A stretch of DNA of 47,741 nt, taken from positions 1 to 47,741 of the forward strand of contig NZ_AEGR01000075.1 of the NCBI RefSeq assembly GCF_000211835.1, read 5' to 3'. The position numbers were made by a program, and so were the translations under genes. The notes under the pieces are model-generated. The model saw only the letters and a list, made by a program, of their open reading frames with translations. It was not told the DNA's origin and did no database searches. This document shows positions 22,878-47,741 of this stretch, in pieces. Within the stretch, counting starts at the first letter, position 1. Each line of letters starts with the position of its first letter. This stretch comes from Hylemonella gracilis ATCC 19624. GTDB lineage: Bacteria; Pseudomonadota; Gammaproteobacteria; Burkholderiales; Burkholderiaceae_C.

Positions 22878-23183
22878 ATGATGGCAAGTCTTTCTTCCAT
22901 TGGCATTTCAGGTCTGCAGGCCGCGCAATTGCGGCTGGACAGTTCCGCGCACAACGTGGCCAACCTGAACACTCCCGGCTTCAAGCGCCAGACGGTCACC
23001 CAGCAGGACGCGCCCAACCTTGCGGGGACCCGCACCCGCCTGGGCAAGGCCCGTGAAGAGGGCGTGACTCTGGAGGGGGAAGTGGTCGAGCAGATGTCGG
23101 CCTCCCACGCCTTCAAGGCCAATCTGCAGACTCTCAAGACCCAGGAAGACATGCTGGGCTCTTTGCTCGACACCAAGGCTTGA
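22878..23183 (+). CDS. Solitary mini flagellar basal-body rod protein
   Basis: Protein of 101 residues consisting of little more than the two conserved ends of flagellar axial proteins. The N-terminal rod motif (SSIGISGLQAAQLRLDSS followed by AHNVANLNTPGFKRQ) is joined to a C-terminal helix (EVVEQMSASHAFKANLQTLKTQEDMLGSLLD) with only a short linker. FlgB and FlgC have the same ends but are longer. No other flagellar gene is near. The first two codons are both ATG, so the start is 22878 or 22881. A role in the basal body, or a separate role using the same coiled-coil polymerisation, cannot be distinguished. Confidence 0.8.
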   Translation: MMASLSSIGISGLQAAQLRLDSSAHNVANLNTPGFKRQTVTQQDAPNLAGTRTRLGKAREEGVTLEGEVVEQMSASHAFKANLQTLKTQEDMLGSLLDTKA

Positions 23184-31077: not shown

Positions 31078-31455
31078 TCAGGGACGGCTGGCCGTGGGGA
31101 AAGGCCAAGCGGCCTGCGGGTTCAACGTGGTTTGGGCCACGGGCGCCGCGGGTGCAGCAGCGGGTTTCGCAGGCGCAGCGGCAGGCTTGGCAGCGGCCTT
31201 TTTCGCGGCGGGCTTCTTGGCAGCAGGCTTTTTCGCGGCGGGCTTCTTGGCAGCAGCCTTCTTCGCCACGGTCTTCTTGGCGGCGGCCTTCTTGGCAGGA
31301 GCCTTCTTCGCGGCGACCTTCTTGACCGCAGCCTTCTTGGCCGGGGCCTTCTTCGCTGCGGCCTTCTTGGCCGGAGCCTTCTTCGCTACGGCCTTCTTAG
31401 CCGGAGCCTTTTTAGCGGCGGTTTTTTTCGCCGGAGCTTTCTTTGCAGTTGCCAT
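31078..31455 (-). CDS. Histone H1-like DNA-binding protein
   Basis: Very basic protein of 125 residues made almost entirely of Ala, Lys and Pro. It has about 15 imperfect repeats of the type [15 protein letters not shown] or KKPAAKK up to about residue 90, then an Ala/Pro linker and a distinct tail ([17 protein letters not shown]). This matches the C-terminal-domain-like H1 homologues of Burkholderiales, which bind DNA nonspecifically and affect nucleoid compaction. The ATG has a strong AAGGAG ribosome-binding site. A terminator follows directly, so the gene is monocistronic. Repeat number is likely to vary between strains because the DNA is itself repetitive. Confidence 0.9.
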
Positions 31456-41735: not shown

Positions 41736-41866
41736 ACCCTTGCTAGGGCAAGCGCCGTGCCACTAAAAAATCCTCTTTCAGATCAAAGGCTTGTGATGGT
41801 TTTTCGGAGCGGATTGCAAAGTTTCGTGAAAAAGTTCCGCAAACCCTGCATTTTTGTCGCCGTGCG

Positions 41867-41910: not shown

Positions 41911-43386
41911 TTATTCATCAAGCACTTGCCCGTGTCGTTCGGGGGCGACAGGTGGGCTCGAGGACGAGGATGGGCCCGTTCCTGCGATGCTGGTGTCGCC
42001 GCCCGTCTTGAAGCGGCCTGGCGTCAGCCCGTGCTTTTGCAGCAGGCGGTAGAACTCGGTGCGGTTGCGGTCCGCCAGCCGCGCGGCGTCCGCCACATGT
42101 CCATCGGTCAGCTTCAGCAGATTGACCAAGTAATCGCGTTCGAAACGCTGCTTGGCTTCGGCATAGCTGAGCACCTCAACCGAAGGCGTGCGCAGCGCGC
42201 GTTGCACCAAGGTCAGGGGCACCAGCGGCGTGGTGGCCAAGGCGCAGACCTGCTCCACGACGTTGTGCAGCTGGCGCACATTGCCCGGCCAGGGCGCGGT
42301 GGCCAGCGCCTTGAGCGCCTCGGGCGCGAAGCCCGCCAGCTTGCGCCCTCTGTCCTCATTGCCGTATTTGCCGGCCAGCTTGCGCAGGAAGTGATTGGCC
42401 AGCAGCGGGATGTCCTCGCGCCGCTCCGCCAATGTGGGCAGGTGGAGCGTGACCACGTTGAGGCGGTAATACAAATCCTCGCGGAATTGTCCGGCGGCGA
42501 GCGCGGTATCCAGATCACGATGGGTGGCGCTGACGATGCGCACGTCCACCGGGATGGATTGCGCGGCACCCAGAGGTCGCACCGCGCGTTCCTGCAGCAC
42601 GCGCAGCAGTTTGACCTGCAGGGCCAGCGGCATGTCTCCGATTTCGTCCAGCAGCAAGGTGCCGCCGTCCGCCGCCTGGAAAAGCCCCTTGTGATTGGTG
42701 TGTGCGTCGGTGAAGGCGCCCTTGACGTGGCCAAAAAGCTCGCTCTCCAGCAAGTTCTCGGGAATGGCGCCGCAGTTCACCGCGACGAACGGCTTTTTCG
42801 CGCGCGCGCTGGCGTTGTGGATGGCGCGTGCCAGCAGTTCCTTGCCGGTCCCGCTGTCACCGCGCAGCAGCACGCTGGCGTCGCTGCGCGCCACCATGCG
42901 CGTTTCCGCCAGCAGTTCGGCCATCCTGGCGGAGCGGCTGATGATGTCCGCCCGCCAGGGTTCGTTCGCGGCGGAGCTGGCCGCCGAGGCGGTGTCCGCG
43001 GCGTGCGCGCTGTGCAGCGCGAGGGCCTGGGCGATCTTGTCGAGCAGTTCCTTGCCCTCGAAAGGCTTGGTCAGGTAGGTGTAGACACCGCGCGACGTCG
43101 CTTCCACCGCGTCGGGAATGGAGCCATGCGCGGTCAGCAGGATGACCGGCAGCATGGGGTGCTGGGCGTGGATTTCATCGAACAGGGCTAAGCCGTCCTT
43201 GCCCGGCAGGCGCACGTCCGACAACACCAGTTGGGGACGTTCCAGCGCGAGTTGGGTCAGCGCTGTTTCCGCCGAGGCGGCGGTCAGCACGCGGTAGCCC
43301 GCCGCTTCCAGTCGCAGGGTGAGCAGACGCAGCATGTCGGCGTCGTCGTCGACGACGAGCAAGGTCGAGGAGGGGCTGGCGCTCAT
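41911..43386 (-). CDS. glrR: Sigma54-dependent response regulator, GlrR/QseF type
   Basis: Enhancer-binding response regulator of 491 residues. It has a receiver domain with phospho-acceptor Asp57, an AAA+ domain with Walker A GDSGTGKE (176-183) and Walker B LLLDE (244-248), and a C-terminal Fis-type helix-turn-helix (HVADAARLADRNRTEFYRLLQKHGL). The order of motifs and the NRTEFYxLL helix closely match GlrR/QseF. The sigma54-contact loop reads GAFTDA (223-228) instead of the usual GAFTGA, which could weaken sigma54 interaction. The start codon overlaps the stop of the upstream lipoprotein gene (ATGA), indicating coupling. A GlrK kinase gene is not found nearby. Confidence 0.92.
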   Translation of the reverse strand: MSASPSSTLLVVDDDADMLRLLTLRLEAAGYRVLTAASAETALTQLALERPQLVLSDVRLPGKDGLALFDEIHAQHPMLPVILLTAHGSIPDAVEATSRGVYTYLTKPFEGKELLDKIAQALALHSAHAADTASAASSAANEPWRADIISRSARMAELLAETRMVARSDASVLLRGDSGTGKELLARAIHNASARAKKPFVAVNCGAIPENLLESELFGHVKGAFTDAHTNHKGLFQAADGGTLLLDEIGDMPLALQVKLLRVLQERAVRPLGAAQSIPVDVRIVSATHRDLDTALAAGQFREDLYYRLNVVTLHLPTLAERREDIPLLANHFLRKLAGKYGNEDRGRKLAGFAPEALKALATAPWPGNVRQLHNVVEQVCALATTPLVPLTLVQRALRTPSVEVLSYAEAKQRFERDYLVNLLKLTDGHVADAARLADRNRTEFYRLLQKHGLTPGRFKTGGDTSIAGTGPSSSSSPPVAPERHGQVLDE

Positions 43387-44051
43387 GGCAATGAACCTGC
43401 TTTGTCCGGGTCGGTGTGGGGTGCGGGCGAGGTGGCGGGCACGGGGCCAGTCGTGGTCTTGGGGGGGGGCAAGGGTGTCGCCTGGGGCAGACTGTCTTCT
43501 ACGGCGCGCATCGCGGCGATCTGGCCGTTCAACTGCTCGATACGCTGCTGGCGCTCACGCAGGAGTTGAGCCTGCTGCTCGTTGGATTCTTGCAGGCGTT
43601 GTTGCTCGGCGTACAGCGACGCGAGCCGCAGTGCGAGCTGCTGAGCGAAAGCGAGTTGCTGCGTGCGCAGTGCGCTGTGGCCGTCCTGGGTTTCCATGGC
43701 CTTGAGGCGTTCGATTTCAGCGTCCAGCGCCTCCGGCGACAGGGCGCACAGCGCCTCGGCGTAGGCCAGCGCCTCGGCAGCGGTGCCGAGATCTTTCTGA
43801 CGTGCCGGCACGGGCGTGGCGCTGGGGAGAGGCGCTGTGTCCGCGACGGGTTGCCGGTCCAAGAAAGGCAAATCCACCGACAGCGACCAGCTCGATGGCG
43901 GCCAGAGCTTGGCCGCGCACCCAGCTAGTTGGCTCAGCCCGACCGCGATGAGGCCGACTGCCACCACTCGCGCGCAAGGACGCACCCACAGCAGCCGGCG
44001 CTGCGGGGGAGACGGGCGATGCGGACGAGGTGGATGGGAAGCGAAGGTCAT
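43383..44051 (-). CDS. QseG/GlrG-like lipoprotein
   Basis: Predicted outer- or inner-membrane lipoprotein of 222 residues. A hydrophobic N-terminal segment ends in the lipobox LSQLAGC (about residue 45), after a long basic start that suggests the true initiation codon may be further in. The mature part contains a helical, coiled-coil-like stretch (EALDAEIERLKAMETQDGHS through RQQRIEQLNGQIAAMRAVE) and proline-rich ends. In enterobacteria the gene between glrK and glrR encodes the lipoprotein QseG. The 4-bp overlap with the regulator gene and these features support the same role here. Sequence resemblance itself is weak. Confidence 0.75.
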   Translation of the reverse strand: MTFASHPPRPHRPSPPQRRLLWVRPCARVVAVGLIAVGLSQLAGCAAKLWPPSSWSLSVDLPFLDRQPVADTAPLPSATPVPARQKDLGTAAEALAYAEALCALSPEALDAEIERLKAMETQDGHSALRTQQLAFAQQLALRLASLYAEQQRLQESNEQQAQLLRERQQRIEQLNGQIAAMRAVEDSLPQATPLPPPKTTTGPVPATSPAPHTDPDKAGSLP

Positions 44052-44605
44052 GGAAAAGAGGGCGGGCGCATGGCGGGCAAGCGCTGTGGCCAGTCTATCT
44101 AGTCAGGGAACCGCTCCCGCTCGGTGGGGCCCCTTGGGACGGCGGAGGTTGCCGGCGAGGGCAGCGCCTGCCGCACACGCATCGCATTGTCCACCCCTTC
44201 TTCTGTAGAAATCAGCGAGGACTGATGAATGTCCCCTTGATCCAGCGCGCATCCGCACCTTGAGTGATCTCTTGAGCAAGCAAGCGACAGCAGCTTCGGT
44301 TGCAGGCATCAGGGCTTGTGTCATCGCGGGCTGGGTCGCGGAAGCCGCCTTTGCGGTAAACGGCCACCCCGATGGGTATATTGATGTGCAATGTCACCAA
44401 TAGTTACCGATGGAGGCTCTGACAGCGTTCGGTGTCACACTTCAGCCGCGTCTCGGTGCCCATCAAACTGGATTTTGAGTCTCCCAAGTCCACAAAGTTT
44501 GAAACAAAGCGCAAAAACGCGGCTGTCTGGCCGGAAAGCATGACGGTCTGCCCTAGGATATTGCCAATTGGGGGAATCCGGCCGACGGAGACCCGGAAAG
44601 GACGA
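44052..44605. other. AT-richer region without a supported gene, at the boundary of the accessory operon
   Basis: This 554-bp stretch separates the QseG-like gene (minus) from the FGE-domain operon (plus). Its second half (from about 44200) is clearly less GC-rich than the flanking genes. Frames present are short, lack ribosome-binding sites and resemble no family I know. One minus-strand frame (44400-44212) ends QEITQGADARWIKGTFIS and might be a gene remnant. A 7-bp inverted repeat TCAAACT...AGTTTGA (44463-44469 and 44496-44502) lies about 100 bp before the operon start. The sensor kinase gene expected before a QseG-type gene is missing. Confidence 0.5.
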
Positions 44606-46201
44606 ATGAAGAAGCACCTATACACGCTGGCGACCTGTTGGATATTGGCGTTTTCGACGGTGTCGCACGCTGCCAGCACCGACTTTGTCGCCACCCACAT
44701 GGAGGCCGGCTACTACTATGGATTCGGGTCAGGCGCCTCCGAGGCTGAAGCCCAAGCTGCGGCCTTCGATGATCTCGTTTACAACCTGCTCACCGAAAGC
44801 GGTGCCATCAAAAGAGAGAAGAAGAACAAGGTGGTGCTGACCGCCGAGATGAAGGCTGCGGTGGCTGTGGTGGCTACCCGTTCTTACACGGCGGACAAGA
44901 AGGGCAACATCTTCCAGGCCTCGTACCGGGTGTCGAACGGCGACTGGGCCAAGGCCGAAGCAGCGCGGACGTCCAAGCTGGCTGCCGACCTGGGGCCCAA
45001 GTTTGACGTGGTGGTGAAGGGTAAGGGCGCCTTGGGAGACCGTCTCTCTCAAGCGGTCCAGATTGACGCTGCTCTCCATCGAGCGGCCGTTGCCCTGACG
45101 CTGCGCACCGGCGACGCCTCATCCCCGCTGCTGTCGCAGACCATCGAGACCTGGGCTGCCTCACAACTGGCGGGTTCCAAGGTCAGCCTGAACCCCAAGG
45201 ACGGCTTGGTTCAGGGGGGCGCTCCCTTCGTCGTCACCGTCACCGCCAAGGACGGCGTCCCCGTGGCCGGATTGCCTCTGAATGTGGTCTGGTCCGCGGC
45301 GGACTCCACGGCCCCCGCCCAGGGCATCGTCACCGACGCCAAGGGTACGGCGGCCTTCGCCTATCCCACCGTCGACGCCTTCAAGAACACGAAGGCGGTG
45401 CTGACCATCACTGGCGACTTCGCCCGCAAGGCGCCCGAAGTCCCGTTTCTAGCATCCCTCGACGCGAGCTTGAAAACCGAGGCAGCTTACCGCAACGCCG
45501 AGGAAATGGCCCAGGTCGCCGACCATCTGGTCAACGTGGCCGCCGGCACCTACACGGTCGGCAAGGTCGATCAGGATCGCCGTGCCAGTGGCAACGAAAA
45601 GCCCCGGACCGTCACCGTCGCCGCCTTCGCCATCGCCAAGGGGCCTGTGACCAACGGCCAGTACCGCTCCTACCTCGACGCCACCAACGTGCCCCAAAGC
45701 GAGTGGCCCGAGTACCTCGAATCGGATGGCTTCAGCGGCGCCGACCAGCCCGTTGTGGGCGTCAGCTACGAGCAGGCCGTCCGCTACACCGCGTGGTTGT
45801 CGACTGCCACGGGCCAGAAGTTCCGCCTCCCCACCGAGGACGAGTACGAAATCGCCGCTCGGGCCGGTCAGGGGTCGATTTTCCCTTGGGGTGATCAGGT
45901 GCCTACTGACGGCGTTCGGGCCAACTACTCGAACAACAAGAAGTTCACCCATCCCTCGCCGGCAGGCTCCTTCCCGAACGGAAAGAACCCCCTGGGTCTG
46001 AACGACATGGTCGGCAACGTGTGGCAGTGGACCTCGACGTCCCCTGACGCCAACATGAGCGCCGATCCTTCCTACAAAATCGTCAAGGGCGGCTCGTGGA
46101 TGGACGGTCCCAATGAGCTCCGCATTTCCAACCGCCGAGCTGTCGACCCGAGTCAGGGCGCCAGCGACATCGGATTCCGCGTGGTCCGGGAGGCCCAATG
46201 A
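44606..46201 (+). CDS. Exported multidomain protein with SUMF1/FGE-type domain
   Basis: Secreted or periplasmic protein of 531 residues. A signal peptide is followed by a cut near SHAAS (about residue 23). Residues about 30-150 hold an LPP20-like block (YYYGFGSGASEAEAQAAAFDDLVYNLL). Residues about 190-290 form an Ig-like, Big_1-type domain (VTVTAKDGVPVAGLPLNVVW and TDAKGTAAFAYPTVDAF). Residues about 310-531 are a formylglycine-generating-enzyme/SUMF1 fold (VTNGQYRSYL, FRLPTEDEYEIAARAG, NPLGLNDMVGNVWQWT, KGGSWMDG, DIGFRVVREA). The mature protein has no cysteine, so the copper-binding catalytic cysteines of FGE are missing; a binding or structural role is inferred. The ATG at 44606 follows GGAAAGGA. 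The stop overlaps the next start. Confidence 0.85.
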   Translation: MKKHLYTLATCWILAFSTVSHAASTDFVATHMEAGYYYGFGSGASEAEAQAAAFDDLVYNLLTESGAIKREKKNKVVLTAEMKAAVAVVATRSYTADKKGNIFQASYRVSNGDWAKAEAARTSKLAADLGPKFDVVVKGKGALGDRLSQAVQIDAALHRAAVALTLRTGDASSPLLSQTIETWAASQLAGSKVSLNPKDGLVQGGAPFVVTVTAKDGVPVAGLPLNVVWSAADSTAPAQGIVTDAKGTAAFAYPTVDAFKNTKAVLTITGDFARKAPEVPFLASLDASLKTEAAYRNAEEMAQVADHLVNVAAGTYTVGKVDQDRRASGNEKPRTVTVAAFAIAKGPVTNGQYRSYLDATNVPQSEWPEYLESDGFSGADQPVVGVSYEQAVRYTAWLSTATGQKFRLPTEDEYEIAARAGQGSIFPWGDQVPTDGVRANYSNNKKFTHPSPAGSFPNGKNPLGLNDMVGNVWQWTSTSPDANMSADPSYKIVKGGSWMDGPNELRISNRRAVDPSQGASDIGFRVVREAQ

Positions 46202-47682
46202 AACTGCAAACAATGAAGCTGAAATTTGTCATCCTGGCCTTTTTGGCCCTGGCCCTGGCTTCCTGCGAGAGCATGAAGTTTTCGATGATGAAGGACGACG
46301 AACTCGTGGCCGGCGGCGTGAAGGCTTGGAATGCCGGCAATTTCGAAGCCGCCCGGGGCTTCTGGTCCAACATTCAAGCGCCCAACGTCAAGAACCAGTG
46401 GATGGGCTACCTTGACCAGAAGGTCGCCCTCGATAAGACCGTCGACGCCGCCGCAGCCCTGCCGGTGACTGCCGAGCCGCCCCTCGTGGCTGGCTGGAAT
46501 AACGCCGTCAAGGCCTCCAATGACTTTCCCCCCGAACTCAAGGTGCCCGCTGACGTCAAGACCCAGCTCGCCCCCGTGGCCAAGGCTGTGGTTCGGCAGC
46601 GGCTCAACGCCAACAAAATCGCGGGCGCCAGGGAATTCATGAAGAGTTCCAGCGACTTCTTGGGTGACGCCGTCGATTACGCCCCTGAAAACAAGGAGCT
46701 GGCGGCGATCGCCGACTTCCGGGCCAGGGAAAAAGGTCCTGATGACCTCGTGGCTGCCGCCCGGGGCAAGGACGCCCTTGACGACAAGATCGAAGGCTAC
46801 GAAGCCGCCATCGCCGAGTATGGCAAGGTCGAGGCCGCCATGGCCGACATCCAGAAAGCTGGCAACTACCCTGCCGGGTCCATCATTGCCTTGGCTTCGG
46901 ACAGGACGCGCCGCAAGAGGGCCGACACCCGCACCGAGATGGAGAGGACCTTGCGGAACCATGCCTACTCATTCAAGGACCGGATTGGCGAGGAATTCGC
47001 CCGCCAGCCCGATCCTGAGAAGGTCGGCAACATGACCCTCGACGACATGCTGGCGTTCAACCAGCAGACCAAGGCCAACATCGACAGCCTGCAGGCCGAA
47101 GTCGTGGCGTTTGCCGCCAAGTACCCCAGGGTCATCGACAAGGACATGCTCAAGGACGTCGAGACCCAGAAGCAGGAACTGCTGGCCCGCATTGCCGTGG
47201 TCACCGCTGAAATCGAGAAGGCCAAGAAGGACGCGGCCATCGCCGCCGAGATCGCCAGCCGCGGGAAGGCCGTGCAGCCCATGCTGATCGGCATGTTCAA
47301 CCCCGTTCCCGGTGCCAAGGGCCCGGACCAGAAGAGCCGTCCCGCCAAGTTCAGGGGAGCGATCAAGAACTCGCCCGACTACTGGTGGGGCATGGTGGAG
47401 ATTGCCAAGGGTGTCTTGAACGACTTGGTCATCACCGTCGACGACAGCCGCCCTGTCCGTGTCTTCAACGAGAACACCAAGTCGGGCAAGGAGATTGATT
47501 CCAAGAAGCTCAAGGATCTGGTGAACCGCCAGTACAAGGTGGGCAACTCTTGGCCGGTCATCAACGCCGGAGCCCAGATGACCTCGGGGAAATACTTCTT
47601 CGAGTTGGGCAAGACCAATGACGATGGCAAATATTCCGGCGACGCGGTCGTCTACAGTTCCTTTGTGGTGAGGATGCGCTGA
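46198..47682 (+). CDS. Large lipoprotein of unknown function
   Basis: Lipoprotein of 494 residues that I do not recognise. The signal peptide ends in lipobox LASC (Cys23), followed by ESMKFSMM. The mature part begins with a short repeat-like helical region (ELVAGGVKAWNAGNFEAARGFW, suggestive of a TPR-type hairpin). It continues with charged helices, including a likely coiled coil at about 290-355 (NIDSLQAEVVAFAAKYPRVI and EKAKKDAAIAAEIASRG). The last 130 residues look globular with a beta-rich end (SGKYFFELGKTNDDGKYSGDAVVYSSF). The start codon overlaps the stop of the FGE-domain gene in ATGA and has GGGAGG before it, so translation is coupled. Lys, Asp and Asn are richer than in neighbouring core genes. 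Confidence 0.85.
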   Translation: MKLQTMKLKFVILAFLALALASCESMKFSMMKDDELVAGGVKAWNAGNFEAARGFWSNIQAPNVKNQWMGYLDQKVALDKTVDAAAALPVTAEPPLVAGWNNAVKASNDFPPELKVPADVKTQLAPVAKAVVRQRLNANKIAGAREFMKSSSDFLGDAVDYAPENKELAAIADFRAREKGPDDLVAAARGKDALDDKIEGYEAAIAEYGKVEAAMADIQKAGNYPAGSIIALASDRTRRKRADTRTEMERTLRNHAYSFKDRIGEEFARQPDPEKVGNMTLDDMLAFNQQTKANIDSLQAEVVAFAAKYPRVIDKDMLKDVETQKQELLARIAVVTAEIEKAKKDAAIAAEIASRGKAVQPMLIGMFNPVPGAKGPDQKSRPAKFRGAIKNSPDYWWGMVEIAKGVLNDLVITVDDSRPVRVFNENTKSGKEIDSKKLKDLVNRQYKVGNSWPVINAGAQMTSGKYFFELGKTNDDGKYSGDAVVYSSFVVRMR

Positions 47683-47683
47683 C

Positions 47684-47741
47684 ATGGCTCAAAAAAAGAA
47701 TGCGATCATCGTCGGGGCCGTCGTGGCCCTGGTATTGGCGG
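47684..47741 (+). CDS. Third gene of the accessory operon, N-terminal fragment
   Basis: An ATG one base after the stop of the lipoprotein gene opens a frame that runs off the window. The 19 visible residues (MAQKKNAIIVGAVVALVLA) have a charged start and a hydrophobic stretch, as in a signal peptide or membrane anchor. The minimal spacing indicates translational coupling to the lipoprotein. Nothing more can be said about its identity. Confidence 0.7.
   Translation, partial: MAQKKNAIIVGAVVALVLA

Follow-up and report, generated by a model that had tools for sequence, protein, structure and literature searches.

A six-gene operon of Hylemonella joins a protein with a cysteine-free FGE-like domain and a lipoprotein to genes for a probable Opp/Dpp-type ABC importer

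Gene layout and completeness of the operon

The window analyzed here (47,741 nucleotides) is the entire contig C41 (NZ_AEGR01000075.1) of the genome of the aquatic bacterium Hylemonella gracilis ATCC 19624 (G000), so that the third gene of the cluster described below is cut at its end, position 47741 (Table 1). Contig C55 of the same genome opens with the last 7 bases of the window and carries the remainder of the operon, in which gene 3 is followed by genes for two membrane proteins and then for a tandem ABC ATPase. The complete operon was read on C55 and in two further genomes, H. gracilis Niagara R (NZ_JEMG01000001.1; G007) and G003, which is very probably H. gracilis NS1. In all three it consists of six genes, encoding an FGE-like exported protein, a lipoprotein, a solute-binding protein (SBP), an OppB-like permease, a divergent membrane protein and a tandem ATPase. 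What a preliminary description of the window had called a third exported or membrane protein is a family-5 SBP, followed by two membrane proteins and the ATPase.

Table 1. Features at the operon and its borders (window positions unless a contig is given).
Feature	Position	Strand	Description
qseG-like gene	43383-44051		label by eye
Leader upstream of gene 1	44495-44605	+	alignment of three genomes
Gene 1	44606-46201	+	531 aa, exported, FGE-like
Weak Ig-like (MG4/Big_1-like) region, gene 1	45212-45427	+	Pfam, below cut-offs
FGE-like (SUMF1-type) domain, gene 1	45521-46189	+	PF03781, no cysteine
Gene 2	46198-47682	+	494-aa lipoprotein (Cys23)
Gene 3, first 58 bases	47684-47741	+	family-5 solute-binding protein, hydrophobic N-terminal segment
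Second qseG-like gene (L016)	G000:C55:5021-5608		label by eye

The tight coupling that had been noted for the first genes was confirmed: genes 1 and 2 overlap through a common ATGA, and a single base separates gene 2 from the start of gene 3. Gene order was the same in all three carriers, as were the junctions (a 4-bp overlap and a 1-bp gap, then overlaps of 4, 17 and 4 bp, presuming that gene 4 starts at MRFLRF). The putative stoichiometric complex proposed earlier for the products had been read from the gene overlap only. An AAAGGA ahead of gene 1 was recognized by eye as the likely ribosome site. Across the three genomes, protein identity for the six genes is 91-97%, with dN/dS of 0.04-0.17 (0.11-0.17 for genes 1 and 2 versus 0.04-0.10 for genes 3-6), and purifying selection acts on all six genes. 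Given that two further genomes keep the genes, their spacing and their order at this level of identity and dN/dS, the gene set is not a chance arrangement.

Genomic setting and leader

In all three Hylemonella genomes the operon sits in inverted orientation between two qseG-like genes, the far copies being 57-61% identical to the window copy. One of these two genes has a GlrK-like neighbor and the other a GlrR-like neighbor, which has the appearance of a split or duplicated glrK-qseG-glrR locus around the six genes; these neighbor names, like that of the mdoH-like gene, are a reading of the sequence by eye. Between the window genome and G003, flank identity was 75% for the qseG-like, 81% for the glrK-like, 88% for the mdoH-like and 93% for the glrR-like gene. 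The G+C content of the operon (0.61-0.64) was lower than that of the compared neighbors (0.67-0.72), but its third-position G+C (0.81-0.86) was like theirs (0.76-0.91), so the low overall value falls short of indicating recent foreign origin.

Alignment of the three genomes showed that about 110 bases 5' of gene 1 are conserved whereas the remaining intergenic region is not, suggesting that this stretch holds a promoter or leader. No Rfam match was found at E <= 0.1 in 43900-47741, and scans of 44052-47741 and of the initial 5700 bases of C55 showed no sigma-70-type promoter. A sigma-54 promoter for the operon was rejected: the whole window held 2 pattern sites against 3.9 expected by chance, neither of them upstream of the operon. 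A sigma-54-like sequence with one mismatch lies at 41747-41762 (minus strand), just upstream of the mdoH-like gene, and such sequences were no commoner than chance.

Elsewhere in the window, 31078-31455 (minus strand) encodes a 125-aa lysine/alanine-rich protein that is histone-H1-like by eye, with counterparts of 145 and 150 aa in the same neighborhood in G003 and Niagara R. At 22878-23183 (plus strand) lies a gene for a 101-aa protein that starts, by eye, like a flagellar rod/hook basal-body protein; its neighbors are not obviously flagellar.

Occurrence of the operon

Within the genus, 3 of 26 genomes had the operon, with genes 2 and 5 found together in these three and missed together in the other 23. 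A protein search among 60 relatives found gene 2 in 3, its own genome counted. Wider samples of the family, order, class and phylum were each searched with single operon proteins and overlap with one another and with the genus sample; for the ATPase, 3-4 candidates per genome were scored among the matches listed. Outside the genus, these searches gave no ortholog. Gene 2 matched in 2/399 genomes of the order, its own and one with a match over 57 residues (22 bits, E 8.7e-5) that we attribute to chance or to the generic start of a lipoprotein. Gene 5, present in 3/26 genomes of the genus, was found in 2/299 of the family (its own and Niagara R) and 2/398 of the phylum, where the second was an 18-bit partial match (E 7.2e-4). 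Gene 6 was detected only in its own genome among 321 of the class at E <= 1e-50, and in 2/399 of the order at E <= 1e-40, the other being a 31%-identical tandem ATPase. On plasmids, gene 2 had no match at E <= 1 and gene 5 none at E <= 1e-3, gene 3 and gene 1 matched distant family members only, and relatives of gene 6, found at E <= 1e-30 in 6 of 72,556 records, were just 26-28% identical. Judged by these searches, the system is rare within the sampled genomes.

Among the 26 genomes labeled as the genus, a close GlrR (E <= 1e-120) was seen in four, one copy being truncated by the end of its contig, and a QseG-like protein in three; the genus as grouped thus seems to contain clearly different lineages.

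Gene 1 encodes an exported protein with an FGE-like domain that lacks cysteine

Gene 1 begins with a Sec-type signal (about residues 1-22, by eye), followed by an N-terminal region (about 23-190), an Ig-like region (about 203-274) and an FGE-like region (306-528); its orthologs in G003 and Niagara R are 91% identical. Its only cysteine, Cys11, lies within the signal and is replaced by serine in G003, so gene 1 does not encode a lipoprotein. Pfam FGE-sulfatase (PF03781) matched residues 306-528 with E 1.8e-50, and the absence of catalytic cysteines that had been reported for this domain held, as the domain contains no cysteine at all. The catalytic cysteine pair of human FGE is Cys336/Cys341; in alignment, the human catalytic stretch SYMCHRSYCYR falls on SWMDGPN---ELR of gene 1, which is shortened and free of cysteine, and no intact catalytic FGE site was found. 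Identity as a formylglycine-generating enzyme (SUMF1) was ruled out because the domain lacks any cysteine. The solved chains nearest to it were PvdO, ToxD, SUMF2 and FGE.

The other regions named in the preliminary description fared less well. The Ig-like region was weakly supported by sequence matches to MG4 (E 5.4e-4 with the whole protein, 1.2e-4 with the fragment) and Big_1 (E 0.029 and 0.01, respectively), all below the Pfam cut-offs. The LPP20-like assignment of the N-terminal region was not sustained, as Pfam LPP20 scored 13.9 bits there against a cut-off of 25.9 (E 0.074), which is not significant. The predicted structure of gene 1 had a mean pLDDT of 34.1 and was unusable.

Some targets of diversity-generating retroelements have FGE folds. 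This identity was considered for gene 1; a DNA query of 3136 bases found only itself in its own genome (E <= 0.001), so that this search gave no sign of a template repeat.

Gene 2 encodes a lipoprotein without a recognizable family

The lipobox of gene 2, LASC with Cys23, was identified by eye and, together with the signal of gene 1, bears out the export signals claimed for both products and their envelope setting. Under the usual Lol rule, the residue after the lipoprotein cysteine informs membrane destination. Here that residue is Glu, or Ala in G003 and Niagara R, and not Asp, so the lipoprotein is probably at the outer membrane.

The orthologs of gene 2 are 93% (G003) and 92% (Niagara R) identical to it. 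The protein, previously described as one that could not be placed, belongs to no Pfam or NCBIfam family at its cut-off; its best matches below cut-off were Piwi_N (E 0.022), OM_YfiO (BamD-type; E 0.037) and DUF1993 (E 0.12). A structure model was mostly alpha-helical over about residues 30-350 with fair confidence, the C-terminal part past 350 being unresolved, and no specific structural relative was found.

Genes 3-6 resemble an Opp/Dpp-type transporter to differing degrees

Pfam scans of genes 3-6 used the G003 copies, to which those of the window genome are 92-97% identical. Gene 3 matched SBP_bac_5 (PF00496) at 178.3 bits (cut-off 32.4; E 3.2e-52), and its nearest solved chains were Lmo0135, AgaA and further family-5 SBPs. 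A hydrophobic segment at its residues 8-26 may anchor the protein in the membrane or may be a cleavable signal.

Gene 4 matched BPD_transp_1 (PF00528) with E 1.3e-6 (28.8 bits against a cut-off of 26.4), and its C-terminal part matched NCBIfam Opp2B/Opp4B far under their cut-offs. In hhalign against three OppB rows it gave E 7.5e-5 with a probability of 62% over 65 columns (reversed control, E 0.65), and its nearest solved chain, DppB, was a weak match (E 0.0027). Gene 5 has several hydrophobic segments, is polytopic and is positioned where a second permease would be expected. It matched no Pfam transporter family, no NCBIfam model (E <= 1e-5) and no solved transporter, and hhalign of three near-identical query rows against four OppC rows did no better than the reversed control.

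Two ABC_tran stretches were found in gene 6 (E 2.1e-45), and in the window-genome copy Walker A, signature, Walker B and H-loop are each present twice. The nearest solved chains were the Mycobacterium tuberculosis ATPases Rv1281c and DppD (best E 1.1e-30).

A probable importer with two dedicated envelope partners

The reading that we favor, with moderate confidence, is that the operon encodes a six-protein ABC importer of the Opp/Dpp (peptide/nickel) type, two of the six being dedicated partners in the envelope, and that the FGE fold serves binding or docking. Sequence comparison shows a family-5 SBP, a permease like OppB, a tandem ATPase in which each half has its nucleotide-binding motifs, and a further polytopic membrane protein. 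The SBP, at or near the inner membrane, would hand an oligo-solute, peptide-like or of another kind, to the two permeases, through which the tandem ATPase would power transport. The products of genes 1 and 2 most likely act in the pathway of the transporter, either within the periplasm or at the outer membrane; the lipoprotein and the exported FGE/Ig protein could form a periplasmic scaffold or capture module for the substrate of the importer, the FGE fold acting in binding or docking and not in formylglycine formation. With ABC transporter genes present, solute import is likelier than the surface recognition or secretion that had been suggested for the cluster. The earlier interpretation is thus partly supported overall, and the observation itself is confirmed.

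Several known systems share features with the operon. YejABEF and the M. tuberculosis Rv1281c/DppD operons are tandem-ATPase peptide importers, and Gram-negative Opp/Dpp importers are usually pictured as a free periplasmic binding protein that feeds a permease. Opp/Dpp importers with a tandem ATPase, such as that of M. tuberculosis (Rv1281c, DppD), are like the operon in having a family-5 SBP, an OppB-like permease and two NBDs per chain, and the nearest PDB matches of its ATPase, SBP and first permease belong to this group. However, the ATPase is distant, gene 5 is unrecognizable, the SBP is perhaps anchored and two extra envelope genes stand in front. PorK/GldK of the type IX secretion system (T9SS) share with gene 1 an FGE-like domain without catalytic cysteines and an envelope setting, but gene 1, linked here to ABC transporter genes, encodes an exported protein that carries no lipid anchor signal; on NCBIfam GldK it scored 97.4 bits, below the equivalog cut-off of 350. 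The PorK FGE-like fold without catalytic cysteines docks PorN (PMC12421860), which shows that such a fold can act as a docking hub.

A bolder version of the importer reading, possible but in our judgement improbable, is a trans-envelope importer, in which the helical outer-membrane lipoprotein and the dead FGE/Ig protein would form a PorK/PorN-like docking assembly bridging to the anchored SBP and the Opp-type transporter, giving a fixed periplasmic route for a large peptide-like substrate.

We consider it unlikely that gene 1 is instead an active PvdO-like enzyme, modifying a substrate or partner in the periplasm before import. PvdO, a dihydropyoverdine dehydrogenase, is periplasmic, and is the solved chain nearest to gene 1 (E 1.6e-21); it is an FGE-like enzyme and, like SUMF2, another of the best or near-best solved matches, it lacks cysteine where the FGE catalytic stretch aligns. 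However, the score of gene 1 on NCBIfam PvdO, 88.3 bits, is far below the 500-bit equivalog cut-off, and its similarity to ToxD and SUMF2 is nearly as strong. The PvdO and SUMF2 solved chains, at 286 and 284 aa, leave no space for the N-terminal and Ig-like regions.

About as unlikely is a separate envelope function for genes 1 and 2, merely cotranscribed with the transporter. Their somewhat higher dN/dS would agree with this, but it is opposed by the gene order and junctions, which do not vary among the three genomes, and by the joint presence or absence of genes 2 and 5 across the genus. Similarly unlikely is that the ABC unit is a sensing or force-transmitting envelope machine and not an importer, perhaps tied to the GlrK/QseG/GlrR-like neighbors: both membrane proteins are divergent, gene 5 beyond recognition, and the flanking genes as labeled by eye would fit, but the SBP and both ATPase halves appear intact and the sigma-54 scan placed no site upstream of the operon.

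Among the open-access literature matches listed, judged by title and the start of the abstract, there was no paper on such an operon, and the words transporter and formylglycine are absent from the main text of the NS1 genome paper (PMC9948732). The combination of a lipoprotein, a repurposed FGE fold and a possibly anchored SBP suggests that importers can be physically organized across the periplasm, and non-enzymatic use of the FGE fold would then extend beyond the T9SS.
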